Positions 41,571-60,834 are shown, counted from the stretch's first letter. The stretch is 64,000 nt of DNA from Candidatus Bathyarchaeota archaeon (GCA_026014725.1 JAOZHV010000052.1:62001-126000), one strand, 5' to 3'. Notes: generated from the letters alone by a model not told the origin. Numbers and translations: made by a program.

Positions 41571-42674
41571 TTATTGTTTTTTCTTTAATTCTTCTCGTAT
41601 TCGCTCAAGGTACTTGGGGTCTTCCCTGAGCACCTTGGGAATGTAGTTGCATGCTGGGTCTGATTCAAACAGGTCGCCCGTGTAGAATTCAGCGCGTGTT
41701 CTGCATCCGCCGCAGATTTCTCGGTACTCACAGACGCCACATCTGCCCTTGAGGTTACTTTTGTCGCGAAGTTTAAGGTGGAACTCGCTTTTCTGCAGGT
41801 CATCCCAAGCTTGACGCAGGGAAGTGTTCTTAACGTTGCCGACGCGGTAGCCTTCGTGGAAGCCGCAGCTTCGGTAGTCACCGTTCTCTGTGATGCCGAT
41901 GTAGTTGCCGCCGATGGTGCATCTGCCGAGGTAGCCTTCGTTGAACCAGTCCCAGAAGTCCACAGAGTTTTTCTGTTTAACGATACGTGCATAGAAGGGT
42001 GAGTAAACGTTGACTTTGACTTTGCCGTAGAGTTTACGCTGTATTTCATAGATTTCGTTGAATGCATCCTCATACTGCTGAGGGGTTGGCGCGAGGTCTT
42101 CCATATTTTCGCCTGCTCTGCCGACGGGAACAAGGTTGTGGTAGACGACTGAGCGGGCTTTGTATTCTTCCGCCAGCGCTGCTGTGTGCGCCATCTGGTG
42201 GATGTTGTATTTTGTCATGGTTGTGACTAAGCAGTCCAGCAAGCCGACGCTACTGAGTTTCTTCATGGCATGAAGAGCTTTATCATAGCCGCCTTTGCGC
42301 CTTATGCGGTCGTTTGTGTCGCGTTCGCCGTCGATGCTGATGGCTGTTTTAACGTTGTATTTTGTCAGTTTATTGAAGCGTTCTTCATCCCACGCGTAGC
42401 CGCTGGTGATTAAACTGACGTTAAGGTTATGCTGTTTCTCCGCATACTCGATAATTTCCCAAATATCAGGGCGAACCAAAGGTTCTCCACCGCTGATTCC
42501 AAACCATTGCGAGCCGAACTTTGCCATTTCGTCAACCATATGTTTGGCTTCTGCCGTGCTCAACTCTTGGTCAGCTGCATAATCTTTTACGTAACTACAA
42601 TATGTACAGGTGCCGACGCAGTTCCGCGTGCACCGCCAAACCACCATAAATAATGGTGTAGTTGTAGGGTTCAT
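41571..42674 (-). CDS. Radical SAM enzyme with SPASM/twitch domain, AhbD/NirJ-like
   Basis: A 367-residue radical SAM protein. The SAM cluster motif is C19-x3-C23-x2-C26, with an additional C15 just before it. GISGGEPLVRPDIW and SLITSGYAWDEERF follow as in AhbD/NirJ/PqqE proteins. The C-terminal SPASM-type region has RCGVCEYREICGGCRTRAEF and a final DPAC, able to bind a second [4Fe-4S] cluster. Relatives decarboxylate siroheme-type tetrapyrroles (AhbC/D) or modify peptides; which applies is open. A paralogue is at 51493-52569. Single gene. Confidence 0.87.
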   Translation of the reverse strand: MNPTTTPLFMVVWRCTRNCVGTCTYCSYVKDYAADQELSTAEAKHMVDEMAKFGSQWFGISGGEPLVRPDIWEIIEYAEKQHNLNVSLITSGYAWDEERFNKLTKYNVKTAISIDGERDTNDRIRRKGGYDKALHAMKKLSSVGLLDCLVTTMTKYNIHQMAHTAALAEEYKARSVVYHNLVPVGRAGENMEDLAPTPQQYEDAFNEIYEIQRKLYGKVKVNVYSPFYARIVKQKNSVDFWDWFNEGYLGRCTIGGNYIGITENGDYRSCGFHEGYRVGNVKNTSLRQAWDDLQKSEFHLKLRDKSNLKGRCGVCEYREICGGCRTRAEFYTGDLFESDPACNYIPKVLREDPKYLERIREELKKKQ

Positions 42675-42811: not shown

Positions 42812-43270
42812 TTAATTTTGTTGCTCTATTTTTCGGTATTTTCGCCTGTTTTGGATAAGCCCTTCAATGGTGAAAACAATCAGCGCTAAGCCTGTTATGA
42901 GCATTAACAGGACAAAGAAGACTTTGAACTCGTAATTTTCAACTGGATAATGAAGAAAGAAAACTATGGCTTCTATGATGAAGACTCCTAGAAAAACCAG
43001 AGAATAACGCCATATCTGGGGAATTAAACGGCTTCCTATCCAGACGTAACCTGCAATAGACGCTTTAGTTTTAATGGTGTATTCACCATATGCGTTCTTC
43101 TGCAGATAGCCTATGTCTTCAAGTTTTTGGAGGTGTCTGTATGCAACGCTGGGGCTACTAAGGTTCACGCCTTTCATGACATCTCTGGGTCCAACGGGTT
43201 TGCCTTTTCTTACAACATACAAGTAAACATCTTCGGTTAATCCCTCAAGTTCTATGTCAGCATTAGTCAC
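42812..43270 (-). CDS. Membrane-bound winged-helix regulator
   Basis: A 152-residue protein. The N-terminal half is a winged helix (VYLYVVRKGKPVGPRDVMK, then SSPSVAYRHLQKLEDIGYLQKN) and the C-terminal half has two helices (about residues 88-108 and 116-140) with a basic tail. It is divergent from the RnfD-like fusion gene (43541), so it is a candidate regulator of it. I prefer GTG at 43270, which has GAGG 8 bases upstream and starts the protein at the domain; a TTG start at 43351 would add 27 residues. Confidence 0.72.
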   Translation of the reverse strand: MTNADIELEGLTEDVYLYVVRKGKPVGPRDVMKGVNLSSPSVAYRHLQKLEDIGYLQKNAYGEYTIKTKASIAGYVWIGSRLIPQIWRYSLVFLGVFIIEAIVFFLHYPVENYEFKVFFVLLMLITGLALIVFTIEGLIQNRRKYRKIEQQN

Positions 43271-43484
43271 GTTTAAGCCTCGCAAGCAAGAGACAATTTG
43301 CGATTTACACGTATTAGCTTTACTTAAAAGCAGTTTTGCCACTGGTAACAATTTGTTTACAGCAGACTAATTACAAGGTGCAAAAGAGGACAAGTTTGCC
43401 CCTGAGAAAGAAAAATGCTTGTTAATTTTTAATTTTCATAAACTTTTTGCTTCCATATTAAACACATGATGTCTCAAGGAAAGT

Positions 43485-43494
43485 CTTATAAAAC
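43485..43494 (+). promoter_or_regulatory. TATA box of the RnfD-like gene
   Basis: CTTATAAAAC lies about 50 bases before the ATG at 43541. AAGGAG at about 43523 is the ribosome site. Confidence 0.5.
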
Positions 43495-43540
43495 CTATTA
43501 ACGCTAAAAGGAATTAGAAATCAAGGAGATTGTATAGAGA

Positions 43541-44923
43541 ATGTCTTCAAAACCAAAAGATTATTCGTGGATGACTAAAGATAAACTAATGACCTACACC
43601 TTCTTTGCCCTCCTCGCAATAGCAATTGTAACCATAGTCATGTGGTGGGGCGTATCCTCCTCAGACATGATGACTGGTGCAACGGTAGGTATGGACTTTG
43701 GATTAACAGTATTAATCAACTGCCTTATTGCAATAGGCATTGCAGTAGGCATAGATGTATTGCTAAACAAAGTCACCGTCGATAGTCCCCTCAACATTAT
43801 GTCTGCTGCAGTTTTTGGCTTGATTGTTGCAATGTCTTATTCTGTTGGAGAACCAGTGATGCGCGCAAGCGAAGTGCTTCCATTGGTTGGTCCTCAATCA
43901 TTCATCTACGTTGCGCTCATAACTGTCGTCGGTATGGTACTGTTCAAAAAACTCCAAGGCTTAAAAAGAAAATACGTCAACCCAGCCGCAGCCGCAAAAC
44001 TTCTGGTTCTTGCTTTCGTTGGAATCTTTACAGTGCTTATCCCAGCTGACCACCTCCTCTCAGGTGGATTACAAGTGCCTTCATTAGCAGGTCCAGTCGG
44101 CTATGATGTAATAGGCGGAAACGGTGCTGCCGGATTTGGCTTTTACGTGTACAGTTGCTTTGCTAACCCAATGTTACAACTTCCAAGTGCTGTTTCACAA
44201 TCTGACGTGTTCAACTTGCTGTTCCTACAAAAGTTCCACGGCTGGCCAGGTGGCGCTTCAAGCATCGCTGTAATAGTCGTTGGCATCGTACTGTTCGCTC
44301 TTCTACGTCGGTACATAAAATGGAGAATTACCGCAGCATACTTTGCCTCAGTAGCAGTGACAGCCGTCATATTGAACTTCGTGTTCCCAGGCGGCGACTT
44401 ACTGTTAAGGCTCGGCTTTAGCCTATTCGTAGGAAGCTCAATATTCCTAGCGTTCTTCATGGCAACCGACCCCGCATCAACACCGTTAACATATTTAGGT
44501 CAGATAATATTCGGCGTAGGCTTAGGAGTGCTGACAGTTCTGTTGCAAACTGTGGGTTTCTTTGGCGGTTCAATCTTAGCACTAGTCATAATGAACCTCA
44601 CGTCACCTGTCTTAGACCGCGTAGGCAAACTAAAGCCAGCAACTGAAAAGAAAGAGCCAAAACTACCCAAAGCCAAAGCATTTGCAGCTGAGAAAGTCAA
44701 AGTTTACGACTGCATAAGATGCGGTGCCTGCATGAGAGTTTGTTGCCACAATCTTAGCCCAATACTGATCAAACAAGCATTTGACAAACAAAACTTCGAT
44801 GCCATGATTAAACTCAACGCTGACTACTGCGATGGCTGTGGACACTGCAGTTTCGTATGCCCCTCAAGAATCGATTTGAAAGGTAGTGTACTTAGAGCAA
44901 AAGCAATGCTACGACAGCAATAA
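43541..44923 (+). CDS. RnfD/NqrB-like membrane protein fused to RnfC-type double [4Fe-4S] domain
   Basis: A 460-residue protein. Residues 1-360 form about ten helices of NqrB/RnfD type, including FMATDPASTPLTYLGQ (306-321). Residues 385-460 are a cytosolic ferredoxin-like domain: C391-x2-C394-x2-C397-x3-C401 and C430-x2-C433-x2-C436-x3-CPSR (C440), which matches the C-terminus of RnfC. A DMMTGAT segment (42-48) after helix 1 fits the DxxTGAT consensus for covalent FMN attachment. This suggests an electron-driven ion pump or a membrane ferredoxin oxidoreductase in one chain. The other Rnf subunits (A, B, E, G) are absent here. It is followed by another membrane protein. Confidence 0.85.
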   Translation: MSSKPKDYSWMTKDKLMTYTFFALLAIAIVTIVMWWGVSSSDMMTGATVGMDFGLTVLINCLIAIGIAVGIDVLLNKVTVDSPLNIMSAAVFGLIVAMSYSVGEPVMRASEVLPLVGPQSFIYVALITVVGMVLFKKLQGLKRKYVNPAAAAKLLVLAFVGIFTVLIPADHLLSGGLQVPSLAGPVGYDVIGGNGAAGFGFYVYSCFANPMLQLPSAVSQSDVFNLLFLQKFHGWPGGASSIAVIVVGIVLFALLRRYIKWRITAAYFASVAVTAVILNFVFPGGDLLLRLGFSLFVGSSIFLAFFMATDPASTPLTYLGQIIFGVGLGVLTVLLQTVGFFGGSILALVIMNLTSPVLDRVGKLKPATEKKEPKLPKAKAFAAEKVKVYDCIRCGACMRVCCHNLSPILIKQAFDKQNFDAMIKLNADYCDGCGHCSFVCPSRIDLKGSVLRAKAMLRQQ

Positions 44924-44929
44924 AGAACT

Positions 44930-44965
44930 TCAATTCCCTAACCTTTTCTTTTATTATTGGTCTAC
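44930..44965 (+). terminator. T-rich terminator after the RnfD-like gene
   Basis: ACCTTTTCTTTTATTATT follows the stop at 44923 by about 16 bases. No hairpin. Confidence 0.3.
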
Positions 44966-45034
44966 CCGCATGCTTAAAACCCAATCGAAGACTTTTGCCG
45001 CCTAAACATCCATACCGAGCTTCACAGCATTAAG

Positions 45035-45043
45035 CTTATAAAC
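45035..45043 (+). promoter_or_regulatory. TATA box upstream of the 45077 gene
   Basis: CTTATAAAC lies 42 bases before the TTG start, so this gene can be transcribed on its own as well as with its neighbour. Confidence 0.45.
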
Positions 45044-45076
45044 TCGCCACAACGTAAATAAGTCAAGGGATAAAAA

Positions 45077-45835
45077 TTGGAAGAAAATAAATTCAAGCTA
45101 AAAAACCTATTTGATGCCATTGTTATACCGATAATTCTGGTAATACTCATCTTCGTCTTCGCAGTTTACATCAACGTAGGCGGACAACACCACATCCTTG
45201 GTGCTACCAACGTAATCGCTGTTATCTTGGTTAACGGTTTTGCTCAAATGATTGTTCTCGGTGTCCCACTGGTTCTAGGTTTGCTGTGGAATAAATGGGC
45301 AGGCGGAGCGGCAGGCTTCATCATGGGTGGCATATACTACTTAGCAAACGCGGGTCAATATAATGGACTATATGCAATGGGCGGAATGGTTCAGGTAACA
45401 ATTCCACTGACCAACGACACAATAGCTGGAATTGCAAACGGTACTATCACCTCTGTTACTGGCAGCGGTTATTCAGCGGTGCCTTACAACTTTTTCGGCG
45501 ACATAAGCATGCTCTTCTACCTCGTCAACGCTGTCATAATCGGCTACATTGCAGGTTCGCTCAGTGGCGGATCCACAAACTTCAAACGAATGCTAGGCGC
45601 AGGCTTAACCGCATCTCTGATAACCGCAGTCATTCAAGCATTTATGAACTACAACGTCTCGCTTGGCGATCCAACTGACCCGTATTCTGCAAGAGGTATG
45701 GCAGTAGCCCAATGGGCAAACGATCCTCTGATGGCAATCGTGACAGGTTTCGTTCCAAGCATTGCCTTGGGCATAATAGTACCTGTTCTCGCTAAAGTCA
45801 TGACTTGGTATGGCATTCAGCCACAGAAACACTAA
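45077..45835 (+). CDS. Multi-helix membrane protein of unknown function next to the RnfD-like gene
   Basis: A 252-residue protein with about six to seven helices (first at residues 12-32, last near 222-243) and small, glycine-rich loops such as KWAGGAAGFIMGG and YIAGSLSGGS. I do not recognise it. The loop at about 105-135 (TNDTIAGIANGTITSVTGSGYS) lies outside between helices. TTG at 45077 follows GGGAT. Adjacency and shared orientation suggest it may partner the RnfD-like fusion, for instance as a second pump or channel subunit; no motif proves that. Confidence 0.7.
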   Translation: MEENKFKLKNLFDAIVIPIILVILIFVFAVYINVGGQHHILGATNVIAVILVNGFAQMIVLGVPLVLGLLWNKWAGGAAGFIMGGIYYLANAGQYNGLYAMGGMVQVTIPLTNDTIAGIANGTITSVTGSGYSAVPYNFFGDISMLFYLVNAVIIGYIAGSLSGGSTNFKRMLGAGLTASLITAVIQAFMNYNVSLGDPTDPYSARGMAVAQWANDPLMAIVTGFVPSIALGIIVPVLAKVMTWYGIQPQKH

Positions 45836-45983: not shown

Positions 45984-47270
45984 TTAGGCGTGTTTAGGCG
46001 CAAATTCCCATGCGATATTGCCTTTCCAAACTTCACCCTGCTTAGTCAACCTAATCTCGTTTTCATCAATCTCGATTAAGCCTTGGTCTTTTAGTTTTTG
46101 CAGTTGCGCTGGAAAGACCTTTTCGGGGATTGTGTTGAATTTTTCCATGAATTCTTTTTTGCTCACGGGCAACCGCAGGTACAGGCGCGTCATGGTTCTT
46201 CTCATCATATCCTCTTGTGTTGATTCTGACAGCCTGCAAATGGGCAGTTTACCAGACGCCACCGTCGCCATGTAGTCGTGTATGTTTTCGAGGTTTGAGT
46301 AAGAGAACCTTTGAAGGTAACCCATGAAGCATCCAGCCCCTGTGGTTAGTATGCCTCCCCATGGCCAACCGTTTAGGCAGTTCTCACGCATGTGCCACTC
46401 CACGCGGCTGTAGCGGTCGTGACCAACCGCTTTGTATCCTGCTTCAGTTAGCATCTTGTAAGCGGTAAGGTACATTTGCTTTTCATACTCCGCATCTCCT
46501 GGCGGCGGAGAAACACCTGTCTTTATCATCTTCTCTAAAAGCGTGCCTGGGTCAACGTGTAGTGAATAAGCATCTATTTCAACATCTAACTCAATGGCTT
46601 TCTTTAGCGTAGCAATCCAGCTTTCCATTGTCTGCCCAGGCAAGTTATACATCAAATCAACACAGACGCATAAGCCAAGCTTTCGTGCATGTCGAATGGC
46701 TTTTTCCACGTCTGCCGCGCTGTCTGGCAGACAAAGCATTTTGCGTAGTTTGTCATCAAAAGTTTGAGCGCCCATGTCCATCTGGTAAACGCCGTACTCG
46801 GCAAGTTTGTCAATTTTTTTGAGGGCAAGGGTCTTTGAGGAACCCGTGACTTTGATGAAGTACTCATCATTAGTGTTAAAGTTCGCTTTACAAAAATCGA
46901 TGAGGTCAATCATCTGTTCAGCCGTCAAAACGCTTGGGGTTCCGCCGCCCAAGACGATTTCGTCAAATACGCTTGTTTTGACGTATTTTGTTTTAGCGTA
47001 CATAGCCAACTCTTTTTTGAGCAAGTCAAGATAAGGCTCAATTTTGACTTTGCTGGTTGCAGTTGTTGGGAAATAACAGAAAGCGCATCTTGAGTCGCAA
47101 ACAGAAATCCAAGGTTGCAACTCCATCAACCTGCCAGAAGTATTCTCAGTGTTTAGAAATTCCATGAATGCTTGATATGTTTCAGGTTTGATGTCTGGGT
47201 AATCCCTGTAGGTGTATGGGGGCCAGTTTTCTCGTGAACCGTAAACTTCTGGCTCAGAGGCTTTTGTCAT
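45984..47270 (-). CDS. HemW/HemN-like radical SAM enzyme
   Basis: A 428-residue radical SAM enzyme. The cluster cysteines are C58, C62 and C65 (CDSRCAFC). GGGTPSVLT, then DMGAQTFDDKLRKML and VDLMYNLPGQTMESW, are the signatures of the coproporphyrinogen-dehydrogenase/HemW family; the C-terminal winged domain (PVSKKEFMEKF, LIEIDENEIRLTKQG) fits too. Family roles include haem chaperoning, oxidative decarboxylation of coproporphyrinogen and haem degradation. True HemN has an extra N-terminal motif that I do not see. It follows a B12-type rSAM gene on the same strand across a 354-base gap. Confidence 0.83.
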   Translation of the reverse strand: MTKASEPEVYGSRENWPPYTYRDYPDIKPETYQAFMEFLNTENTSGRLMELQPWISVCDSRCAFCYFPTTATSKVKIEPYLDLLKKELAMYAKTKYVKTSVFDEIVLGGGTPSVLTAEQMIDLIDFCKANFNTNDEYFIKVTGSSKTLALKKIDKLAEYGVYQMDMGAQTFDDKLRKMLCLPDSAADVEKAIRHARKLGLCVCVDLMYNLPGQTMESWIATLKKAIELDVEIDAYSLHVDPGTLLEKMIKTGVSPPPGDAEYEKQMYLTAYKMLTEAGYKAVGHDRYSRVEWHMRENCLNGWPWGGILTTGAGCFMGYLQRFSYSNLENIHDYMATVASGKLPICRLSESTQEDMMRRTMTRLYLRLPVSKKEFMEKFNTIPEKVFPAQLQKLKDQGLIEIDENEIRLTKQGEVWKGNIAWEFAPKHA

Positions 47271-47624: not shown

Positions 47625-49022
47625 CTACATGCGTGCCATGATTCGCCAGAGGTTATAGTTTATTGCAGTTCTAACCATTATTTTGCTGTACAAGTTGCCC
47701 TTAAAGTAGCCTTTTACCGCTTGCCGCACGATGTAGCGTGGGGAGTAGAATTGGTTGTAGAATTTCTTTCGCATTTCCGCTATGTCTTTAGCGGGCAGGT
47801 TGGGGTCTTCAAAGATAGGGTTCATCGTGTTGTAGAGTTTCCAGTCCTCTGCCATTTTCCACCCGTTCTTCTCAACGAGTTCACGAAGGGCAGTGCCGGG
47901 GTAGGGTGTGGCGTGGCAAAGCCAAACATCGTCGGGTTCGGCTCTGCGGACAAAATCAAGCGTCTCCTGCAGGGTTTCTCTTGTCTCGCCTGGATAGCCT
48001 AAGATGACTGATACTGTAACGAACATGCCTGCTTCTTTTGCCCATTTAATCGCGTTATCGCATTGTTCGTTGGTGACGCCTCTTTTTAGGATGGCGCGCA
48101 TTTGGGGGCAACCTGACTCTATGCCGAACATGATTTCGTCACAGTGTGCTTTGCCCATTTTGGTTAGGAGTTCTTTGGTGACTACGTCTGCGCGGGTTCC
48201 GCATCCCCATCGCAGGTTAATTTTGCGTTCAATCATGCCGTCGCAGATTTGTGTGGCCCTATGTTTATCGAAAGTTAATGTGTCGTCTTGGAAAGCTACG
48301 CCTTCAGCGCCGTATTCGTCTCTGAGCCATTCCAGCTCGTCAAGAACGTTCTTTGGGCTTCGGGCTCTAAACTGTGCCCCAAACATTTGCGAGGCAACGC
48401 AGAAAGTGCATTGGAAGGGGCATCCCCTGCTGGTTATAACCGACAACAATTTTTGTCCTGCAATCCAGTATTTTTCGATAGGAACAAACTTGTAAGCGGG
48501 ACGAGGCAACGCGTCGAGGTTTTGGATGAAGGGTCGAGGGGCTGTTCGGATGATTTCGTTGCCTTTCCTAAACATTATGCCTTTAACATCAGCGAGTTTC
48601 TGCAAACTCGGTTGCTTGGCAAGTTCTAAGAGGGTTTCTTCTCCTTCACCATGCACTATGAGGTCAACTGATTTCTCAGTAGCAAGGATTTCTTTGCCTG
48701 AAAAAGTTGCGTGTGGTCCGCCCATAATGATTTTTGCGTCTGGACACGCCTCTTTAGCTAAACGTGCAGCTTTGAAAGCTGACTCAATCGTAGGTGTCAT
48801 GGAGCTGATGCCGACGATGTCTGGCTGAAAGGCTGCTATTTCAGCTTGGAGTTTTTCATGACTAAATTGCAGGACGGGGGCGTCAATGATTTTTACTTCA
48901 AAACCGTTTTGGTCCAAAACTGCCGCCATGTAAGCTAAGCCCAACGGCGGAAAAAGTGGGTGGTGACCGATTCCTTGTAGAAGCGGTGGAGTAACGAGGA
49001 CTATTTTTTTGTTTGGGTTCAT
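47625..49022 (-). CDS. B12-binding-domain radical SAM enzyme (subgroup B)
   Basis: A 465-residue enzyme. The N-terminal 150 residues are a B12-binding-like Rossmann domain (PPLGLAYMAAVL, DIVGISSMTPT, IIMGGPHATF, DLIVHGEGEETL) without the DxHxxG motif, as usual in this class. The radical SAM core has C201-x3-C205-x2-C208 (CPFQCTFC), then FGAQFRARSPKNVLDELEWL and FGIESGCPQM. Known members methylate unactivated carbons, close rings or modify lipids and tetrapyrroles. It belongs with the 58378 and 63266 paralogues. It follows a beta-propeller gene on the same strand. Confidence 0.87.
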   Translation of the reverse strand: MNPNKKIVLVTPPLLQGIGHHPLFPPLGLAYMAAVLDQNGFEVKIIDAPVLQFSHEKLQAEIAAFQPDIVGISSMTPTIESAFKAARLAKEACPDAKIIMGGPHATFSGKEILATEKSVDLIVHGEGEETLLELAKQPSLQKLADVKGIMFRKGNEIIRTAPRPFIQNLDALPRPAYKFVPIEKYWIAGQKLLSVITSRGCPFQCTFCVASQMFGAQFRARSPKNVLDELEWLRDEYGAEGVAFQDDTLTFDKHRATQICDGMIERKINLRWGCGTRADVVTKELLTKMGKAHCDEIMFGIESGCPQMRAILKRGVTNEQCDNAIKWAKEAGMFVTVSVILGYPGETRETLQETLDFVRRAEPDDVWLCHATPYPGTALRELVEKNGWKMAEDWKLYNTMNPIFEDPNLPAKDIAEMRKKFYNQFYSPRYIVRQAVKGYFKGNLYSKIMVRTAINYNLWRIMARM

Positions 49023-49173
49023 TTCACCATACACGCGTGCAGAGGGGTTAATCGGGGTGGTTGGTCATCCGATTAGGTATAGCTTAGCCAATGTTTTTGG
49101 GACTTTTGAACTTTACGTTACCTGAAAGTTTTTCGTAAATTATGAGGGTTGACCTAAAATTGGCTCTTTAAAC

Positions 49174-51411
49174 TCAAGCGATTTGTTTGGGCTTGGTTCT
49201 AAAGAACACTAAACCAGCCGCCACAAGAACCGTCAAAACCCCAAGGAAAGCAAATGTGACATAAACTAGTGGAGAGGTTTCAGACGCTTGTTGTTCAACA
49301 GGTAAGGAGTCGAAGGCGTATATCATGTGGTCGTAGGAGCCAACGTAAACTCCCTCCGCAGATATTCCAGGTGAAGAGACAACTTGTCCGCCTGTAGCAT
49401 AACTCCATTTGAAACCGCCATTCCCTGCATCAAGAGCATAGAGTTTGCCGTCATATGAGCCAAATAGTACCGTTCCATCCGCTACTGCTGGCGATGACGC
49501 AACTTCTCCACCCGTCATGTAATCCCACACAAGTTTGCCGTCGGAAGCACCAAGGCAATACAACTTTTTGTCGTCTGAACCAACGTAGACTTTGCCGTCT
49601 GCAATGGCGGGAGACGAAGAAACAGCGCCGCCAGTCGTGTAATTCCAAATCTGTTGCCCCTTTGAAGCATCTATCGCGTATATGTTATGGTCGTAGGAAC
49701 CCACGTACAATACGCCGTTTGATATGGCAGGCGAAGACACAACGTATCCACCTGTGGCAAATTTCCATAGAAAGTCACCGTTTAGAGCATCAAGCGCATA
49801 TACGTTGCCATCGTTTGAACCAATATAGAGTACGTTATTGACGATAGCTGGTGAGGACACCATTATCTGGTCGCCTGTCGTGTAATTCCAAACCAAGCTA
49901 CCATCCGAAGCATTCAGGGCGTAGATGCTGTAGTCCTCTGAGCCTATATACACTACGCCTTCGTAGACCGCGGGTGAAGAAACAATTGCGAATCCAGTGA
50001 GGTAGCTCCAAATGTAAGCGCCTGTTTTTGCATCTAAAGCGTAGACTTTGCCGTTGTAAGAGCCCACGTAAAGCACTCCGTCCGCAATTGCTGGGGCAGA
50101 AAACATGACCATGTCTCCAGTGTCATAGCTCCAGACCACCGTGTTGTGTAGTTCCCAATCGTAGCCAACCATGCCTGTGGAAGCATTCAAACAGTACACT
50201 TTACCATCATGGGAACCGACATAAACTAAACCATCCGCGACCGTTGGCGAGGAATCAACTGGGCCTCCCGTTGCAAATCTCCAAACAAGTTTGCCGTCTT
50301 GCGCGTTTAAGGCGTATAGTTTTCCATCCCACGAACCCACATATACTCTGCCTTGAGCTACCGTGGGCCAAGAAATCACCATGTCATCTGTTATAAAACT
50401 CCATATGAATTCTCCATCAGTAGCGTTTAGAGCATACACTTTGCCGTCATCAGACCCTACATAAACCACGTTGCCCTGAACGGTTGGTGAAGAGGCAACG
50501 CCTCCGCCTGTTTTGTAACTCCAAACCTTTGTGCCATCTGACGTCTTGAGAGCGTAAACGTGGTTATCCAGAGACCCAATGTAGACTATACCGTTTGAAA
50601 CATAAGGTGAAGAGTAGATGTCGCCTCTTGTTGTGAAAGACCATTTTAGTGTGCCGTCGAAAGCGTTTATGGCATAAATGTTGTTATCCATCGAACCAAC
50701 GTAAACTACGCCGTTAGCAACGTATGGTACAGAAACGATTATGTCGCCTGTCTCATAGCTCCAAACAAGTTCGCCATCAGTAGCGTTTAGAGCGTAGAGC
50801 TTTTTATCCAATGAGCCAACGTACACTATGCCCCCGCTTACAGTGGTGGAAGACAGCATTATCGGCGCTCCAGTGGCATAACTCCATAAGCGTTCTCCAG
50901 TTGTAAGTTTCAAAGCGTAAACGTTGTTGTCCTCTGAACCAAAATAGACTACGCCGTCAACAATGAAGGGGTCAGAATCAACATAATACCCAGTAGTGAA
51001 ACTCCAAAGTTTCTTGCCATTGCTGGCGTTTAATGCATAAAGGTTGTGGTCCTCTGAACCAACACAAACAACGCCGTTTGCAACTGCGGGGCGAGAAATC
51101 ACTATCCCGCCTGTAGTGTAGTTCCAAATAACTTTGCCTGTAGCAACGTCGAAAGCGTAAACCTTGTGGTCATACGAACCCACGTACACTACGCCATCAA
51201 CAACGGTGGGCGAACCTACTTGGCCGCCTGTGTTGAATTTCCACAACGTCTGATTCGTTTGGGGTACACGTGCATTTGAGTAGCCGTCATGAGCAAGGTT
51301 ACGGCGGAACATAGGCCACGAGTTCTCGTTTAGTTGGTTCTCTGCAAAGGCAACGCTTGGAACTAAAAAGAGCGCCACTAAGAGGAGGCAGATGATTTTT
51401 TTCCCATTCAT
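49174..51411 (-). CDS. Secreted 16-blade PQQ-type beta-propeller protein with membrane anchor
   Basis: A 745-residue surface protein. Signal peptide at residues 1-23 (ending VAFA), then sixteen repeats of about 40 residues with consensus VYVGSYDxKVYALDAxxGxxxWxYxTG, enough for two eight-bladed propellers, and one C-terminal helix with a basic tail. Repeats are unusually regular, pointing to recent expansion or strong structural constraint. The quinoprotein catalytic residues and PQQ genes are not evident, so it may be a BamB-like scaffold or a binding protein. The AhbD-like rSAM gene lies 81 bases upstream on the same strand and a B12-rSAM gene lies downstream. Confidence 0.88.
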   Translation of the reverse strand: MNGKKIICLLLVALFLVPSVAFAENQLNENSWPMFRRNLAHDGYSNARVPQTNQTLWKFNTGGQVGSPTVVDGVVYVGSYDHKVYAFDVATGKVIWNYTTGGIVISRPAVANGVVCVGSEDHNLYALNASNGKKLWSFTTGYYVDSDPFIVDGVVYFGSEDNNVYALKLTTGERLWSYATGAPIMLSSTTVSGGIVYVGSLDKKLYALNATDGELVWSYETGDIIVSVPYVANGVVYVGSMDNNIYAINAFDGTLKWSFTTRGDIYSSPYVSNGIVYIGSLDNHVYALKTSDGTKVWSYKTGGGVASSPTVQGNVVYVGSDDGKVYALNATDGEFIWSFITDDMVISWPTVAQGRVYVGSWDGKLYALNAQDGKLVWRFATGGPVDSSPTVADGLVYVGSHDGKVYCLNASTGMVGYDWELHNTVVWSYDTGDMVMFSAPAIADGVLYVGSYNGKVYALDAKTGAYIWSYLTGFAIVSSPAVYEGVVYIGSEDYSIYALNASDGSLVWNYTTGDQIMVSSPAIVNNVLYIGSNDGNVYALDALNGDFLWKFATGGYVVSSPAISNGVLYVGSYDHNIYAIDASKGQQIWNYTTGGAVSSSPAIADGKVYVGSDDKKLYCLGASDGKLVWDYMTGGEVASSPAVADGTVLFGSYDGKLYALDAGNGGFKWSYATGGQVVSSPGISAEGVYVGSYDHMIYAFDSLPVEQQASETSPLVYVTFAFLGVLTVLVAAGLVFFRTKPKQIA

Positions 51412-51492
51412 TTCTACTCTTAATTATTCTTCGCTGGTATTGCTTATAAGATATTTTGTAAAATAAAGGGAGCGAAGAAAAAAGTGTTTACG

Positions 51493-52569
51493 CTATTTTT
51501 TACGCAGAGCCTCTGGAATGTAGGCGCAAGCGGGGTCAGATTCCGCTATGTCGCCCGTGTAGGCGTAAGCTCGGTTTCTGCATCCGCCGCAGATTTCGCG
51601 GTACTCGCAAACTCCGCATTTGCCCTTTAGCACGTTTCGGGCTTGGAATTTGTTGTAGTAGGGTGATTGTTTGACTTCTTCCCAGGCGGTAGTTAAGCTT
51701 TTGTTTCTTATGTTGCCCAGCATTAACGGTTCAGAAGGCTGCAGGTCTGTGTAGAAGCAGGGGATTAAGTCACCGTTTTCTGTTACGCTCAAATATCCGC
51801 CGAAGGCGAAGTAGGTGCATTTACCATGGAACTCCTTCTCGTACCACTCGTTAAACTGTGCCTCAGGGATTCTTTGTTTTACAACTCGGGCAAAATGTGG
51901 GCAATGAACGTGCACTTCAAATTTGCCTCTGTACTTTTCTGTGATGTCCCAAATGTGATTCAAAACCCACTCGTACTGTTCAGGTGTGGGGGTCAGTTCC
52001 ATGGTGGATTTTGCTCTGCCACTGGGCACCAAGTGATTGTACCAGACGAAGTTAGCATGGTATTTGTCAGCTAATTCGGCAACGTGGTCAAGGTACTTGT
52101 AGTTTACGGTCGTTATTGCACAGGCTAAGCCGTTTAGGATTTTGCCCTTGGAAAGTTTTTCGATGGCTGCCAACGCTTTCTTGTACGAGCCTATTCCGCG
52201 CAGTTGGTCGTTGATTTCTTCTGGCCCGTCAATGCTGACAGATGTCCAAACTTGGTTTTTCACCAAATTATCGTATATGTCGCCGTCAACAAAGCATCCG
52301 TTGGTTAATAGGCACACGTTTAAGCCTTTGCTCTTAGCGTAAGTCACAATCTCAAAGATGTCTTTGCGCATGAGCGGTTCGCCACCTTTTATTCCGAACC
52401 ATCTTACGCCGAACTTGTGCACTTCATCAACCAAATGGAACGCTTCTTGCGTAGTCATTTCTCTTGGAGCATGTTGACCTGTAGCATCAACATTGCAGTA
52501 TCTGCATCGAGCGTTGCAGGCTCCTGTTGCTCTCCAAGAAGTCATAAGTAAAGGACCTTTATGCGTCAA
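51493..52569 (-). CDS. Radical SAM enzyme with SPASM/twitch domain, AhbD/NirJ-like
   Basis: A 358-residue paralogue of the 41571-42674 protein. The SAM cluster is C18-x3-C22-x2-C25 (CNARCRYC); FGIKGGEPLMRKDIF, TNGCFVDGDIYDNL and SVSIDGPEE follow. The C-terminus KCGVCEYREICGGCRNRAYAYTGDIAESDPAC closely follows the AhbD/NirJ pattern, where a second [4Fe-4S] cluster binds. Roles in the family: haem-b synthesis by decarboxylation, haem d1 or peptide modification. The start is TTG at 52569. Its position upstream of a secreted propeller gene suggests a functional link to it. Confidence 0.87.
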   Translation of the reverse strand: MTHKGPLLMTSWRATGACNARCRYCNVDATGQHAPREMTTQEAFHLVDEVHKFGVRWFGIKGGEPLMRKDIFEIVTYAKSKGLNVCLLTNGCFVDGDIYDNLVKNQVWTSVSIDGPEEINDQLRGIGSYKKALAAIEKLSKGKILNGLACAITTVNYKYLDHVAELADKYHANFVWYNHLVPSGRAKSTMELTPTPEQYEWVLNHIWDITEKYRGKFEVHVHCPHFARVVKQRIPEAQFNEWYEKEFHGKCTYFAFGGYLSVTENGDLIPCFYTDLQPSEPLMLGNIRNKSLTTAWEEVKQSPYYNKFQARNVLKGKCGVCEYREICGGCRNRAYAYTGDIAESDPACAYIPEALRKK

Positions 52570-52835
52570 GGTAAAACCAACCCCAAATTCTCTTCAATGA
52601 TTGATTGTTTAACGTTTCTTTTCAACCTAAAAAAGATTATGCGCTGACTTCTTATTTTCATTTACGATGTTTTTTAGCAATTATAGCTTGCTGGAATATT
52701 TGCTGAAAGCGCATTTCTGCTGGATTCAGTAAAGCTTATACTCAAATAAACTTATGAATATGATTGGGCAAGGAATCGAAGTATCTCTTGACAAGAATCC
52801 ATATGTTGCCCATGAATATGCGGGGGTAAACTACA
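52570..52835. promoter_or_regulatory. Divergent promoter region between the rSAM and propeller genes
   Basis: About 266 bases. GCTTATACT near 52733 is a TATA-like box for the plus-strand propeller gene and would give a leader of about 75 bases. Within it, ATG at 52803 opens a nine-codon frame that ends in TAA at 52827-52829, in frame with the propeller. GGGGGT at 52822-52827 is the best ribosome site. No other gene is seen. Confidence 0.45.
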
Positions 52836-55397
52836 ATAAGAAAATTCCCAATCATAGCAATTCTATCTTTCTTGTTGCTTTCATCAGTTTACGCTCCAAT
52901 TTCACTCTACCAAACGAACTCTGTTAGTGCACAAGTTAACGCTTCAAACAGCGCGGTTTTGAACCAGTATGATTGGCCCCAGTTCCAAGGCGATTCCTCT
53001 TACGCTCGGTTTTCAGCAGGCCCCGCCCCCAACAAATTCTCAATCTTGTGGGAAACTAACATGACTGAAATTCAACCCTACATCTCAGCGTTCAACGGAA
53101 AAATCTACGCCTGCAACCACACGCACGCTTTAGCGCTTGACCAAACAGGAAAAATCGTGTGGGGAACAGCTTTTCCTGAACGTACAACGTGGCCTGTCGC
53201 CTACAAAATCGATGATTCACACATGGTAGTGGAGAACTATTGTTTTAACCCCGAAACAGGCGCTCTGCTGTGGACCAGCACTGATTTTAATGCTTTCACA
53301 GGCATCTTCAACAGCAACGTCTACAGCCCCGAAGAAAAAATGTTCTACACCAAAGTCGGCTCCTACATAGAAGCTTGGGACTTCTCAAACCCAGCAAAAC
53401 CGCCAACACGAACGTGGAGAACCTACATACGCGGCGGCGGCATAACAGGCATCGGAACTGCATACGGCGACGGCAAGGTTTTCACTGGCTCGTTTGAGAA
53501 CCAGCAGTTGGCGCTTGATGCCAAAACAGGCGATGTTTTATGGACAACCCTGACCAAGGGTCCAATGGTTTTCACGGGTGCTTACTCTGATGGCAGATAC
53601 TTCAAGGGAGGCACAGACGACAACACAATGTACTGCTTTAACGCCACAAACGGCGAAATCCTCTGGACATACAAACCTGACACAAACGGCTACTTCGTCA
53701 CAGGCTGCGCTGTAGCATACGGCATGGTTTATGAAATGAACAAAGACGGTTTCCTCTACGCTTTCGATGTGGAAACAGGCGAGGTAATGTGGAAGTACAA
53801 GGGTCCAAACGATTCGCTCATGTGGCCTGGAATGCCCACAGTTGCAGACGGCAAACTCTACGTGACAACAGGGCAATCCGCCCAGTACAATGCTCCTGAA
53901 GGCATATCCGAGTTCTCTTGTTTAAACGCTTTCACAGGTGAAACTATTTGGTCACTTACCTTAGAAGCGTTGCCACCACGAGAATCTGTTGCCATTGCTT
54001 ACGGCATGTTGCTTATGATTCCAGGTGACGTAACAACAGCGGTTGATACGATTTCAGGAACCGAGTACACTACAGCTAACCAGATATGGGCAATTGGAGA
54101 GAAATCGGTTCCCGTTAGTTCTTGGCCTATGTGGCGTGCTGACCCAGTCCACTCGTCTACAGCGCCAATTGGTCCAGCAAACCTTTCTTTGACTTGGAAG
54201 TTTGAAACAAAAGGCTCAGTTATTTCTTCACCAAGCGTAGTGGACGGCATAGTCTACTTTGGCTCTCAAGATAAGAACATATATGCCATCGGCGCATGGA
54301 GCGGCCAGTTGATTTGGAAATATGAAACCTTGGCACCCATCGAATCTTCCCCTGCAGTTGTGAACGGCAGAGTTTACACGGGAGGCGACGACGGCTACGT
54401 TTACTGTTTAGATGCATACAAGGGCACGCTAATCTGGAAAACATTTGTAAACGGCGATTTACCTTTCACCTTCGGCAACTTGGTTTTGAAATCTTCACCT
54501 GCAGTTGCTGACGGCATAGTTTACGTCGGTTCCTTAGACAATTACACGTATGCTATTAACGCAAACAACGGCGACATCGTGTGGAAAACCAAAACTGAAG
54601 GTCCAGTTTCGTCTTCACCAGCGGTAGCTGGGGGTGCTGTCTACATATTGTCTGAGGAACCCCAGACAGGAGCTTTCTACAAGTTTGATGCCAAAACTGG
54701 CGATGTAATCTGGAAGAAAAAGTTCCCCTACCGAATTTCCTTTGCCGGCGGTACCCAAATGATGGGTTCTCCATCCGTCGCTGATGGCATGGTGTTTGCA
54801 ATGTCTAACTGGGGCGATTACTTCTGCATAGACACCCAAACTGGCGCGATAAAGTGGACTTTTTCAAACCCGACAGCCAGCGAGTTTATTGTTTCTTCAC
54901 CCATTTACGTTGACGGCAAAGTTTTCGTCATTGACAAATTCAACTTGGCATGTCTCGACGCAACCAACGGTTACACCATTTGGAGTACGTATACAGGCGA
55001 CGAGTTGTATGTTGCTCCTTCTTATGCTGACGGCAAAGTCTACATGGTAACGAGTCAACGTAACATATTCGTCCTAGACGTAACCAATAACGGTACAAAA
55101 ATCGCGACTGCCACCACAGGCTCCAGCAGTTGGTCATCGCCAACTATAGCTAACGGAAGATTGTATGTGGGATGCCACGACTGGAATGTTTACTGCTACT
55201 CCGAATCATACACTCAAGGTGAAAGCACACCTGCTCCTACATCTACGCCAACACCGTTCGAGTTGCCCTCTGAATACATGGTTTTAATTGCAGTCGCAGT
55301 CATCATAGTTGTCATCTTTGTTTCTGTCGGCTACTTTGTTTTGAAACGGGCTAACATCTCCCTTTCAAACCGCTTCTCCGAGAAACCCACTGATTAA
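52836..55397 (+). CDS. Secreted PQQ-like beta-propeller protein with anchor (start codon in doubt)
   Basis: A protein of about 853 residues with two propeller-like halves (blades such as VYVGSLDNYTYAINANNGDIVWKT; YFGSQDKNIYAIGAWSGQLIWKY), a Thr/Pro linker (TPAPTSTPTPF) and a C-terminal helix. Start: the in-frame sequence before the first good TTG (52872) encodes IRKFPIIAILSFLLLSSVYA, a textbook signal peptide. The strongest ribosome site, GGGGGT, sits 8 bases before an ATA (52836), not ATG. In-frame ATGs at 52803, 52812 and 52818 are cut off by TAA at 52827. So either ATA initiates, the TAA is an error or mutation, or TTG 52872 starts with a shortened signal. Confidence 0.82.
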   Translation: MRKFPIIAILSFLLLSSVYAPISLYQTNSVSAQVNASNSAVLNQYDWPQFQGDSSYARFSAGPAPNKFSILWETNMTEIQPYISAFNGKIYACNHTHALALDQTGKIVWGTAFPERTTWPVAYKIDDSHMVVENYCFNPETGALLWTSTDFNAFTGIFNSNVYSPEEKMFYTKVGSYIEAWDFSNPAKPPTRTWRTYIRGGGITGIGTAYGDGKVFTGSFENQQLALDAKTGDVLWTTLTKGPMVFTGAYSDGRYFKGGTDDNTMYCFNATNGEILWTYKPDTNGYFVTGCAVAYGMVYEMNKDGFLYAFDVETGEVMWKYKGPNDSLMWPGMPTVADGKLYVTTGQSAQYNAPEGISEFSCLNAFTGETIWSLTLEALPPRESVAIAYGMLLMIPGDVTTAVDTISGTEYTTANQIWAIGEKSVPVSSWPMWRADPVHSSTAPIGPANLSLTWKFETKGSVISSPSVVDGIVYFGSQDKNIYAIGAWSGQLIWKYETLAPIESSPAVVNGRVYTGGDDGYVYCLDAYKGTLIWKTFVNGDLPFTFGNLVLKSSPAVADGIVYVGSLDNYTYAINANNGDIVWKTKTEGPVSSSPAVAGGAVYILSEEPQTGAFYKFDAKTGDVIWKKKFPYRISFAGGTQMMGSPSVADGMVFAMSNWGDYFCIDTQTGAIKWTFSNPTASEFIVSSPIYVDGKVFVIDKFNLACLDATNGYTIWSTYTGDELYVAPSYADGKVYMVTSQRNIFVLDVTNNGTKIATATTGSSSWSSPTIANGRLYVGCHDWNVYCYSESYTQGESTPAPTSTPTPFELPSEYMVLIAVAVIIVVIFVSVGYFVLKRANISLSNRFSEKPTD

Positions 55398-55465
55398 AAG
55401 TACTCCTGCTCAGCGCGCTCTTAACTTGAAGAAACCGATTTTCTGGTCACAATTGACAGAACCCG

Positions 55466-55553
55466 AACATATTTGGAGCATATTAGAAACTCTATGCAGA
55501 AACCTATAGGGGGTGGGTTACTATTGGTGATTTTGGCGGTCAATAGCATGTTG
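55466..55553 (+). repeat. Intergenic repeat R1, copy B
   Basis: Aligns with 3579-3665, same strand. The identical 24-base block is 55491-55514. CTATTG (55521-55526) pairs with CAATAG (55541-55546), where copy A has TTATTG/CAATAA: one base pair changed on both sides, keeping the stem, with the same 14-base loop. It lies upstream of the first Dph6-like gene. Confidence 0.7.
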
Positions 55554-55686
55554 AAAACTTGTTGTCACGTTATTCTGAAAACGCAACTTAAACGTAGCGG
55601 TGTTGTCGGATTTCGTAAACGCTTAATAAGTTAACATGTTTAGTCTAACATCCAAAACAATTCAAACTCGCTTGGATGTTAAAGCA

Positions 55687-56442
55687 ATGAAAGTTGTTGT
55701 TCACTGGAGCGGCGGAAAAGACTGCTGCACAGCACTCCACAAAGTAATCGAGCAGGGACACGAAGTAGCATGCTTGGTTACGTACATTTACATGGATCCC
55801 TACATTTTCCACAGCTTCAAAGTCATAGAGCTGCAAGCGAAAACGCTGGGGCTTCCGCACCAGTTTGTAAAAATCACAGACAACCGTTATGACGATATTA
55901 TGGGTACCCTTGAACGGCTACATAAAGAAGAAGGCGTCGAAGCCATAGTCACAGGCGACATCGACAACGTCCATCATAGGCGCGTGTGGAAAGACGCTTG
56001 CAAAAAATTAGGCGTCAAACTCTTAATGCCGCTTTGGGATAGACCGCTCAACCTGATTCCAGGCAGTCGCTACCGCAAGCGAATCATGGAAATTGAGCAG
56101 TCAACAGGAGTTAAAGCAATCCTGAGCTGCATTGACCAAAGATACTTCACGCAGGATTGGCTGGGGCGCTGGATTGACAGGAAATGCATCGAAGACATGA
56201 AGCCCCTCGTTGGTCCAGCAGGTAAAGGAATAGATGTCTCAGGCGAGCCTGGCGAGTACCACTCAACTTCACTTGATGCGCCATTGTTCAAGGAACGCAT
56301 TGAAATAACCAAATTCACCAAGAAAAGCAAAGTGGTTGATTTTGGAGGCTCGCCCTTCAGAGAGGGAAACTTTCTCTATATGGATATTGAAGAAGCCGTT
56401 CTTAAACCCAAAAACCAAAACACCCCTTCCCTAAAACAGTAG
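55687..56442 (+). CDS. Dph6-like PP-loop ATPase (diphthine-ammonia ligase family), paralogue 1
   Basis: A 251-residue adenine-nucleotide alpha-hydrolase. The PP-loop is SGGKDCC (residues 8-14), then HKVIEQGHEVACLVTY; VEAIVTGDI and EPGEYHSTSLDAPLF are the later family signatures. Dph6 amidates diphthine on EF2 with ATP and ammonia; other members of this MJ0570-type group are uncharacterised. I chose ATG 55687 because the paralogue at 60607 begins at the same residue. It is flanked by repeats R1 and R2 and sits among B12-rSAM genes. One paralogue may be the true diphthamide enzyme and the other diverged. Confidence 0.85.
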   Translation: MKVVVHWSGGKDCCTALHKVIEQGHEVACLVTYIYMDPYIFHSFKVIELQAKTLGLPHQFVKITDNRYDDIMGTLERLHKEEGVEAIVTGDIDNVHHRRVWKDACKKLGVKLLMPLWDRPLNLIPGSRYRKRIMEIEQSTGVKAILSCIDQRYFTQDWLGRWIDRKCIEDMKPLVGPAGKGIDVSGEPGEYHSTSLDAPLFKERIEITKFTKKSKVVDFGGSPFREGNFLYMDIEEAVLKPKNQNTPSLKQ

Positions 56443-56460
56443 TTCAAGCCTTTTTTGATT

Positions 56461-56547
56461 GGTTTGTTTTTTTATAGTAGAAGAAGAGAGTGCCCGCCCT
56501 ACTCATCATCTACCAGCAGATATTGTAAATTATTGCTTTTTTGTGTC
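56461..56547 (+). repeat. Intergenic repeat R2, copy 2
   Basis: Aligns with 28333-28414: TAGTAGAAGAA (56475-56485), ACTCATCATCTACCAG (56501-56516), TTGCTTTTTTGTGTC (56533-56547), with a 3-base length change between the first two blocks. It lies just after the Dph6-like gene. No gene covers it. Confidence 0.65.
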
Positions 56548-56684
56548 ATCGTTAGCCCCAGACTGCAGGCAGGTTGTAGCCAATTCTGCAACTTGATTAA
56601 AAATTTAAAGATTGCCGTTGACCTGTTTTATCGTAATGTTGATAAAGCGACCCTGCCCTAGAACAGTAAAGTCTGGAGTTAAGC

Positions 56685-56990
56685 ATGGTGTCAGAAAAAC
56701 AAGTTATCGGCAACCTTACACTAAACATTGTTTGGCTCTGCGGAGGAACAACCGCCGACATAACTCCAGCGCCGCCGGTAAAGTTTAAAATGGATCAAGC
56801 ATGTGAAAAAATAAAAAAACAACACCTGAAAATCCGTGTGAAGTCGCCGATGATGTTGATGTTTGATTATATGAAGATGGAGATAAGCCTCTTTGACGGG
56901 GGGCGTATGCTAATCAAAAACGTCACGGACAACAAACTGCCAACAAAAGCCTACATCGAAATTCTCAAAACAATCAACGTGCCTATATAG
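56685..56990 (+). CDS. Small unknown protein, possibly a ThiF/MoeB-tail-like domain
   Basis: A 101-residue protein with no signal or membrane segment. The end LFDGGRMLIKNVTDNKLPTKAY... ILK resembles the C-terminal domain of archaeal ThiF/HesA-type E1-like proteins (LFxDGRxxIKxx...A..IY..IL), and PAPPVKFKMDQACEKI could be the first strand and helix. Without the adenylation domain it cannot act as E1. This is weak recognition; treat it as unknown. Its stop is 9 bases from the converging B12-rSAM gene's stop. Confidence 0.6.
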   Translation: MVSEKQVIGNLTLNIVWLCGGTTADITPAPPVKFKMDQACEKIKKQHLKIRVKSPMMLMFDYMKMEISLFDGGRMLIKNVTDNKLPTKAYIEILKTINVPI

Positions 56991-56998
56991 CAAAATGG

Positions 56999-58360
56999 CT
57001 AGTGAAAAATCAGTTTAGTACCTTTCTTGAGGGCGCTTGCAAAGCCTTCTTGCCGAATAACGCGGATCAGCCTAGCCGCTGACTTTTGGCAGTTCCGCTG
57101 GAAGTCTCTTTGGATTTTCACAAGCATATCATAATCGAAGTCGGCAGTTTTGACGCGTGCCAAATAGTTATCCATCTGGTCATACAAGTCTTGGTTTACT
57201 ACTTCATCGTAGAGTTTGCTGCCGGGGCAAGCGATGTAAATGTTGAATTGGCACCAGTCGGAATTCAAGCTCTTCGCGAACTTGAATGTGTCTTTCATGT
57301 CGTTAACTGTTTCTCCGGGGATTCCGAGCATAAATGAAGTAGCTGTTCGGATTCCAACTTGCCTGCACAACTCAAAAGTGCGTTTTACCTCTTGCAAATC
57401 GATGCCCTTGTTTAGCTTCTGCTGAATCTTGGGTGAGCCCGATTCGAGCCCAAAGAAGATGGTTTGGCAACCAGCAGACTTCATGTCAAAGAGCAATTCT
57501 TTTGAGATTAGGTCTGCTCGGGTTTCACATGTCCACTTAAGGTCTAACTTATTTTCTACAATTAGGCGGCAAAGCTCAGCTGTTCGTGTTTTGTTTATGG
57601 TAAAGTTGTCGCCGACAAAGTAGATGCCTCTTGTGCTGTAATTCGCTATCATGTGCTTTATTTCGTCTATGACTCTTTTCGGTGAAAAAGCGCGGCAAGT
57701 GGGTCCCCACAACTCTCTGGTTTCGCAGTAGGCGCATTTGTAGGGGCACCCTCGCAGTATACTCATGGTGTCAACAGGTTTAACATCCAAGTAGCTCAAG
57801 GCGCGATCATACATTTTCATCGGCAACAAATGACGCGCAGGAAACGGCACGGCATCCAAATCGGCGATGAACTCTGGTGGACTCTTAACGTTCTTGCCGT
57901 TTAGCCTAAGTGCCACGCCAGGAATCTTAGAAATTGTGCTGTCTGGTTCGCCTTTCAGGATGCTATTGGCAAGCTTTACCATTGCTTGCTCTCCTTCGCC
58001 GATGACTACGTAGTCTATTTCTTTATGCGCCAGCATGGTGTCAGGCATGTATGACGGGTGAGGACCGCCAACCACCACTCTGCAGGTTGGGCAGGCTTCC
58101 TTAACCGCCTTGGCTGTCTCGATGCATCGCTCGTACGTGAGGGAACTGCAGGTTATGCCCACAATTGTTGGCGAGCGCTTTTTGACTTCCAGCTTGACTT
58201 CTTCGATTGGTCGCTCCAGCAAGTAATTGTCATAGATTTCAGTTTGAAAGCTGCTCTTTTCTAGGGCTGCAGCAACATAGGCTAATCCCAGTGGAGGAAG
58301 CTTTCCAGCCATGCCCCAAGGCGATTTTAACGGTGGAGCAGTGGTCATCAGAAGAATCAA
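56999..58360 (-). CDS. B12-binding-domain radical SAM enzyme (subgroup A)
   Basis: A 453-residue enzyme. It starts at TTG 58360 (preceded by GGAG), giving ILLMTTAPP at the N-terminus, exactly as in its paralogue at 60835. The B12-like domain has PPLGLAYVAAAL, IVGITCSSLTYERC and GGPHPSY; the SAM cluster is C205-x3-C209-x2-C212 (CPYKCAYC), followed by CRAFSPKRVIDEI and FVGDNFTINK. Subgroup A differs from B by CETR(E/K)LWG after the cysteines. It is 17 bases after the subgroup-B gene at 58378, so the pair is one operon. Substrate unknown. Confidence 0.87.
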   Translation of the reverse strand: MILLMTTAPPLKSPWGMAGKLPPLGLAYVAAALEKSSFQTEIYDNYLLERPIEEVKLEVKKRSPTIVGITCSSLTYERCIETAKAVKEACPTCRVVVGGPHPSYMPDTMLAHKEIDYVVIGEGEQAMVKLANSILKGEPDSTISKIPGVALRLNGKNVKSPPEFIADLDAVPFPARHLLPMKMYDRALSYLDVKPVDTMSILRGCPYKCAYCETRELWGPTCRAFSPKRVIDEIKHMIANYSTRGIYFVGDNFTINKTRTAELCRLIVENKLDLKWTCETRADLISKELLFDMKSAGCQTIFFGLESGSPKIQQKLNKGIDLQEVKRTFELCRQVGIRTATSFMLGIPGETVNDMKDTFKFAKSLNSDWCQFNIYIACPGSKLYDEVVNQDLYDQMDNYLARVKTADFDYDMLVKIQRDFQRNCQKSAARLIRVIRQEGFASALKKGTKLIFH

Positions 58361-58377
58361 AGTGCTTTCTCCAAGCT

Positions 58378-59790: not shown

Positions 59791-59878
59791 TGCGCTTCCC
59801 TAGGCAATAGGAGTTTACATATTTGGGGTTCATTTACTTTATGCAAAACTAATCGAGTTCTCAACAACGGCGTTTCCA

Positions 59879-60607: not shown

Positions 60608-60834
60608 TTTGAACGCCTTCTGCTGGAAAAAGGCGGGTGGAACCGCTATAAAGTTTTGCATTAACCAGCAGTAATCAGTCAAATCAGCAAAAATAGCAAC
60701 AAAATGTTAACCATGACATTTTGAGTTAAAGCTATAAACTGCCAAATAATCAAAACTAAGCAAACATTCAAAGAGAGAGCCACCGTGACACACAGCCAGC
60801 TAAACCAAACATGCGGCAACGAGGAGAAGCAAAT

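Follow-up and report, generated by a model that had tools for sequence, protein, structure and literature searches.

The window, the whole 64,000-nucleotide stretch of DNA that we analysed, encodes a protein (D-Fer) in which an RnfD-like membrane domain (D) is joined to an RnfC-type ferredoxin domain, and this protein is followed by a second membrane protein (M). With moderate confidence, we read D-Fer as a membrane-anchored electron conduit that derives from the electron-output half of Rnf, now stands alone and would be supplied from F420H2, NADH or ferredoxin. An earlier note on this DNA had left the choice between a membrane electron conduit and a minimal ferredoxin-driven ion pump. The conduit fits the fold, the clusters, the missing Rnf parts and the exchange of donor modules among relatives, and we disfavour the ion pump. 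The features of the window that bear on this reading are the following.

41571..42674, minus strand: R1, AhbD-like radical-SAM/SPASM protein, usually divergent from D
42812..43270, minus strand: winged-helix protein with two membrane helices, 152 aa, probable GTG start at 43270
43541..44923, plus strand: D-Fer, RnfD-like membrane protein with an RnfC-type 2x[4Fe-4S] domain, 460 aa (profile, PDB and fold matches)
43544..44623, plus strand: RnfD/NqrB-like membrane domain of D-Fer, residues 2-361 (PF03116; Foldseek RnfD/NqrB)
44033..44260, plus strand: outer loop of D-Fer, residues 165-240 (45-protein residue comparison)
44696..44890, plus strand: RnfC-type double [4Fe-4S] domain of D-Fer, residues 386-450, eight invariant Cys
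45077..45835, plus strand: M, membrane protein of 252 aa with weak ECF S-component fold similarity
45984..47270, minus strand: R3, HutW/HemW/HemN-like radical-SAM protein that co-occurs with D
47625..49034, minus strand: B12-binding radical-SAM protein resembling BchE/HpnJ (scores below cut-offs), a frequent member of the cassette

Architecture of D-Fer and absence of other Rnf parts

Profile and PDB searches agree with the earlier description of D-Fer as an RnfD/NqrB-like domain and an RnfC-type ferredoxin domain in one 460-residue protein. The Pfam model NQR2_RnfD_RnfE (PF03116) matched residues 2-361 with an E-value of 3.4e-31 (109 bits, cut-off 27.7), and the 4Fe-4S dicluster models of the Pfam profile search matched at approximately 386-443. 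For the tail, the best named match was the last 75 positions of RnfC (TIGR01945, E 8.7e-16), and a comparison with the PDB retrieved the RnfC chains 7zc6_C (E 1.2e-8) and 9eri_C. The cluster cysteines (391, 394, 397, 401, 430, 433, 436 and 440) are invariant in an alignment of 28 sequences. Against the NCBIfam model TIGR01946 (rnfD), D-Fer scored 81.5 bits, which is below the curated cut-off of 207.05. The NAD-binding domain PF00175 gave no match in D-Fer up to an E-value of 1, and the D-Fer of the window has no FrhB_N or FrhB_C domain.

We compared the AlphaFold2 model of D-Fer with the PDB using Foldseek. Matches with E < 0.001 were confined to RnfD and NqrB chains, namely RnfD of A. woodii, A. 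vinelandii and C. tetanomorphum and NqrB of V. cholerae (E 1e-10 to 1e-7). The model therefore has the RnfD-like core, whose absence had been named beforehand as evidence against the reading. The ferredoxin domain was modelled poorly (pLDDT < 50). We considered whether the fusion could be an accident of one assembly and rejected this, because orthologues occur in many genera and the fusions are 54-78% identical.

D-Fer is the single PF03116 protein of the source genome, which is 97% complete, and a search for an Rnf operon elsewhere in this genome, likewise named beforehand as decisive, found none. The genome contains neither ApbE nor RnfC_N; a full RnfC with the FMN/NADH domain was found in one clade of relatives only (see below). 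The lack of RnfA, RnfE and RnfG reported from the window holds across the genome and the class: no protein of the RnfA/RnfE family (PF02508) or of the RnfG/NqrC FMN_bind family (PF04205) exceeded its cut-off in any of 257 genomes of the class, although MAG incompleteness affects such absence calls. Both searches detected their targets in the positive controls (E. coli, T. maritima and M. acetivorans).

The distribution of D is narrow. Among 398 genomes drawn over the phylum, PF03116 proteins were present solely in two families of the window's order, which belongs to the Bathyarchaeia. In a scan of 84,980 species, with one genome per species, every close relative of D came from a MAG with the label Bathyarchaeota, Bathycorpusculum, Bathyarchaeum, Nitrososphaerota or Crenarchaeota. 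Bacterial matches were weaker, and those that we inspected were ordinary RnfD, some of them within RnfC-D-G-E-A-B operons. A search among plasmids yielded nothing informative. Contig matches L117-L128 were considered as possible bacterial D-ferredoxin fusions, and those read as operons proved to be ordinary RnfC-RnfD neighbours that had been matched in two segments.

A locus in which most Rnf subunits are missing could be a decayed, functionless remnant of an ordinary Rnf operon. Partial Rnf genes have been noted before: the accessible text of one study reports BLAST matches to RnfB, RnfC and RnfD in Bathyarchaeota MAGs, with RnfC and RnfD in a minority, and leaves their ability to function open (PMC9534799), and that of another reports that RnfABCDEG was not found in Bathy-6 (PMC7886697). 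We nevertheless consider decay extremely improbable. The same cluster cysteines and flavin-site residues recur without change in many genera, donor modules have been swapped while gene order was kept, and RnfA/E and RnfG are found nowhere in the 257 genomes. The narrower proposal that D-Fer is a decayed Rnf duplicate was ruled out by the strong conservation and by the lack of an Rnf set in the genome or the class. The accessible text of PMC9534799 mentions neither a fusion nor an exchange of donors, and nothing on a partner M, altered residues or co-occurrence, and our literature search found no paper dealing with both RnfD and FrhB.

Exchange of the electron-donor module

D occurs in three architectures. 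In the first, D-Fer stands as it does in the window. In the second, found in five relatives (G096, G097, G112, G045 and G077), a single ORF of 706-752 aa where complete encodes D-Fer-FrhB; both of the proteins scanned (two of the five) carry FrhB_N and FrhB_C over the Pfam cut-offs. In the third, found in the Bathycorpusculum group, a tailless D is followed by a full RnfC with the FMN-binding 51K domain, RnfC_N and the clusters (411 bits against a cut-off of 246). The donor domains vary and the membrane core is constant across the three forms, so the electron-donor module is exchangeable. By homology, the donors would be F420H2 for the FrhB form and NADH for the RnfC form. Ferredoxin, which the earlier note had named as a possible driver, is one candidate among several: some relatives carry a fused F420 module, and others have a full RnfC instead.

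We rooted a tree of the D domain, built with a quick method, on bacterial RnfD. The split form is one clade (support 99) nested within the fusion forms (a 22-row clade, support 96), which makes the fusion the older state and RnfC a later arrival; the tree rules out split D and RnfC as the ancestral state. The fused FrhB domains also form one clade (support 99), whereas their D domains are scattered, and well-supported branches force at least four changes. One FrhB fusion followed by losses, or else transfers, would fit this pattern. We also considered the stand-alone FrhB of the source genome as the direct counterpart of the fused FrhB; this is weakly supported, as it falls in a sister clade.

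Several further observations concern donor proteins. One genome of family f4 (G056) encodes a 433-aa RnfC-like protein (L039:24-1325) that is approximately 35% identical to the RnfC of the split clade, with no adjoining D on its short contig. Another MAG, with 6% contamination (G086; L037, L057 and L101), has three copies of D: one of the fusion type that lacks the cassette, one of the split type accompanied by RnfC, and a third that contains two in-frame TGA codons. In the source genome, a complex I-type (Fpo/Nuo-like) operon (L135:2-8728, contig G000:C26) adjoins an FpoF-like 501-aa protein with an FrhB domain, and the organism therefore has another possible F420H2-linked membrane enzyme. 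The FrhB domain of the F420-dependent oxidoreductases FrhB/FpoF is shared with the D-Fer-FrhB of the five relatives and absent from the protein of the window. In FpoF this domain feeds a complex I-type enzyme; in the relatives it would feed an RnfD-like protein.

Partner protein M and the radical-SAM cassette

The constant partners of D are M and two radical-SAM proteins, R3 and R1. The earlier note had recognized in M a protein of no known family with seven helices, and this holds: no Pfam family or other sequence family matched over its cut-off, and the model has 6-7 long helices (pLDDT 75). Six of the eight top Foldseek matches are ECF S components, all with E-values of 0.1-1; they include PanT (probability 1.00), two chains of TmRibU (0.91-0.98) and ThiT. 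Kinship of M with RnfA/E was ruled out, since there is no family match and no RnfA/E fold among the top matches; the M of the window also has no cysteine to bind a [2Fe-2S] cluster.

In 21 of 29 broad loci, D and M share a strand and are separated by 69-252 bp. Co-occurrence was assessed over 163 genomes of the order, with the sets for D, M and R3 entered by hand from listed rows. D is present in 57 genomes, M in 58 and both in 54 (Fisher p ~1e-34, a value inflated by shared ancestry), and the gene pair that the earlier note had proposed to look for in other archaea is accordingly found together in 54 of the 57 D genomes. M lies approximately 30 kb from D or on another contig in G073 and G072, and D is present without M in G118.

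Paralogues of M occur as tandem pairs in the source genome (L134:7850-9318, contig G000:C44) and in L148 and L149. Islands with such paralogues carry genes for an ACR3-like arsenite transporter, ArsR-like and ArsC-like proteins and small [4Fe-4S] ferredoxins, as named by sequence reading. In at least six related MAGs (L139-L147 and L035; G082, G094, G098, G103, G107 and also G093), the assembly breaks inside the M gene; the contigs end in its first or last third, the middle is missing, and a repeat, an insertion or strain variation may sit there.

The fold matches raise the possibility of redox-assisted uptake, in which M would import a redox-active vitamin (flavin, corrinoid or heme) in the manner of an ECF S component and D-Fer would reduce the cargo at the membrane. 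Besides these matches, a match to ECF_S_CD3073 in 2 of 23 M members (E 0.0095) and three EcfT (CbiQ) proteins in the source genome speak for such a role. We consider it very unlikely, however, as every fold match of M is at E 0.1 or worse, no sequence family match of M exceeds a cut-off, and the paralogues adjoin arsenic-type genes and small ferredoxins.

Across the 29 broad loci, M is usually convergent with R3 and R1 divergent from D, and B12 radical-SAM proteins and PQQ-type beta-propellers are often near D. R3 is present in 63 of the 163 genomes and in 53 of the 57 with D (Fisher p ~1e-27, again inflated by shared ancestry), and of the 33 genera in family f1, the 14 that carry D are also those that carry R3. 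This arrangement suggests another alternative, that D-Fer is a membrane reductase feeding low-potential electrons to R3, R1 and other (B12) radical-SAM enzymes, which would modify a lipid, tetrapyrrole or peptide. R3 and R1 flank D and M in most loci whichever donor module is present, and R3 tracks D both in the order and in the genera of f1. Yet R3 also occurs without D in several genomes of the order, and radical-SAM enzymes usually draw electrons from soluble ferredoxin or flavodoxin; we regard the reductase as rather doubtful.

Other genes recur near D. Downstream of D-Fer and M (47625-62211), the window contains four proteins of the B12-binding radical-SAM type (47625, 56999, 58378 and 60811) and two PQQ-type beta-propeller proteins (49174 and 52872), and genes like this set are found near D in family f4 (L036). 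Several genera encode an MtrH-like methyltransferase no more than 10 kb from D (L048, L055, L060, L043 and further broad loci); a small B12-binding protein and two large membrane proteins, each of approximately 770 aa, often accompany it. The long ORF of the winged-helix protein extends to 43351, and a start at the GTG codon at 43270 agrees best with the length of its relatives (150-155 aa). The diverging membrane winged-helix regulator of the earlier note is present here, but it is a local feature (8 of 29 loci) and not part of the core.

Conserved residues of D and the proposed electron path

We compared 45 D proteins with nine bacterial RnfD, taking the riboflavin contacts from V. cholerae NqrB (PMC10643135). 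The contacts D346, N203, A205 and F342 are kept in all 45. In 44 of the 45, T162 of the riboflavin site is replaced by Phe and N200 by Lys, and the flavin may therefore be absent or different. The covalent-FMN (ApbE-modified) threonine, T236 in NqrB, is lost, the position being occupied by Asn, Leu, Ser, His and other residues. Loss of the FMN fits the loss of RnfG, RnfA and RnfE, and together these form a coherent picture in which the outer, membrane-crossing half of the electron path is gone.

These comparisons bear on the minimal redox-driven ion pump, in which electron flow via D, with M, would move Na+ or H+ through the RnfD channel and conserve energy. RnfD/NqrB is a proposed ion path in Rnf and Nqr (PMC12174285, PMC10643135), and the positions aligned with the NqrB gate residues F338 and F342 are Phe in every one of the 45 proteins. 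However, published models couple electron and ion flow through movements of RnfA/E, RnfG and the covalent FMN, all of which are absent here, and the outer-exit glutamate is glycine in all 45. We consider a pump unlikely.

Within the outer loop, all 45 proteins have H171, K231, H233 and W235, and 44 of them have C206; none of the five residues is shared with the aligned bacterial RnfD. The loop was assigned to the outer side by the positive-inside rule and RnfD homology, and parts of it are of low confidence in the model. It is possible, though somewhat unlikely, that D represents a class of archaeal membrane oxidoreductase not described before and linked to F420H2 in some species. In such an enzyme, the outer covalent FMN would have been swapped for a new Cys206/His171/His233 site (metal, heme or other cofactor), and electrons would be passed to the ECF-S-like M instead of RnfG and RnfA/E.

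We return to the electron conduit. In Rnf, electrons pass from the RnfD riboflavin to two RnfC [4Fe-4S] clusters, the RnfC FMN and NAD (PMC12174285). D-Fer joins as one polypeptide two Rnf pieces that normally touch, RnfD and the cluster end of RnfC. The first steps of the proposed path follow from homology. A cytosolic carrier would reduce the clusters. In this species it would be a soluble ferredoxin or an unlinked partner; in the forms with a fused FrhB it would be F420H2, and in those with a full RnfC it would be NADH. From the clusters, electrons would move on to a flavin or another cofactor in the cytoplasmic-side site that D partly retains, and from there to an acceptor within the membrane or past it. 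The most likely direct partner is M, in place of RnfG/A/E, and the electrons probably serve the pathway to which the linked radical-SAM enzymes belong.

The closest known kind of system is the bacterial two-subunit Nqr/Rnf-like complexes, and D-Fer is built on the same plan. In the accessible text of Meheust et al. (PMC8238504) and of a 2024 study (PMC10979944), these complexes have an RnfD-like domain without the FMN threonine, a fused NAD-binding domain and an FMN_bind partner. Both systems have a C-terminal electron-input domain on an RnfD/NqrB-like polypeptide, have lost the FMN threonine and have few subunits, and one-way electron transfer is proposed for both. Unlike them, D-Fer is archaeal, and it lacks two of their defining features: its input is an RnfC-type 2x[4Fe-4S] domain (joined by FrhB in some relatives) instead of PF00175, and M takes the place of the FMN_bind partner (none in 257 genomes of the class). 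With the Rnf complex (RnfABCDGE), D shares the RnfD fold, the RnfC-type cluster domain and, in the split clade, a full RnfC, but it differs in the missing RnfA, RnfE, RnfG and covalent FMN, in the fusion of D with the cluster domain and in its partner M. NqrB of Na+-NQR resembles D in its fold, in the four conserved riboflavin contacts and in the gate. It differs at T162 and N200, in the T236 and outer glutamate that D has lost, and in its direct quinone output, instead of which D-Fer has a cluster tail.

Bathyarchaeia are reported as predominant archaea of anoxic sediments, but there is no settled view of how NADH, F420H2 and ferredoxin are connected at their membrane. A minimal unit of RnfD plus clusters with natural donor exchange suggests that the output half of Rnf is able to function without the pump. 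Being small, D-Fer lends itself to the question of whether RnfD by itself transfers electrons or moves ions, which is disputed for the full complexes.
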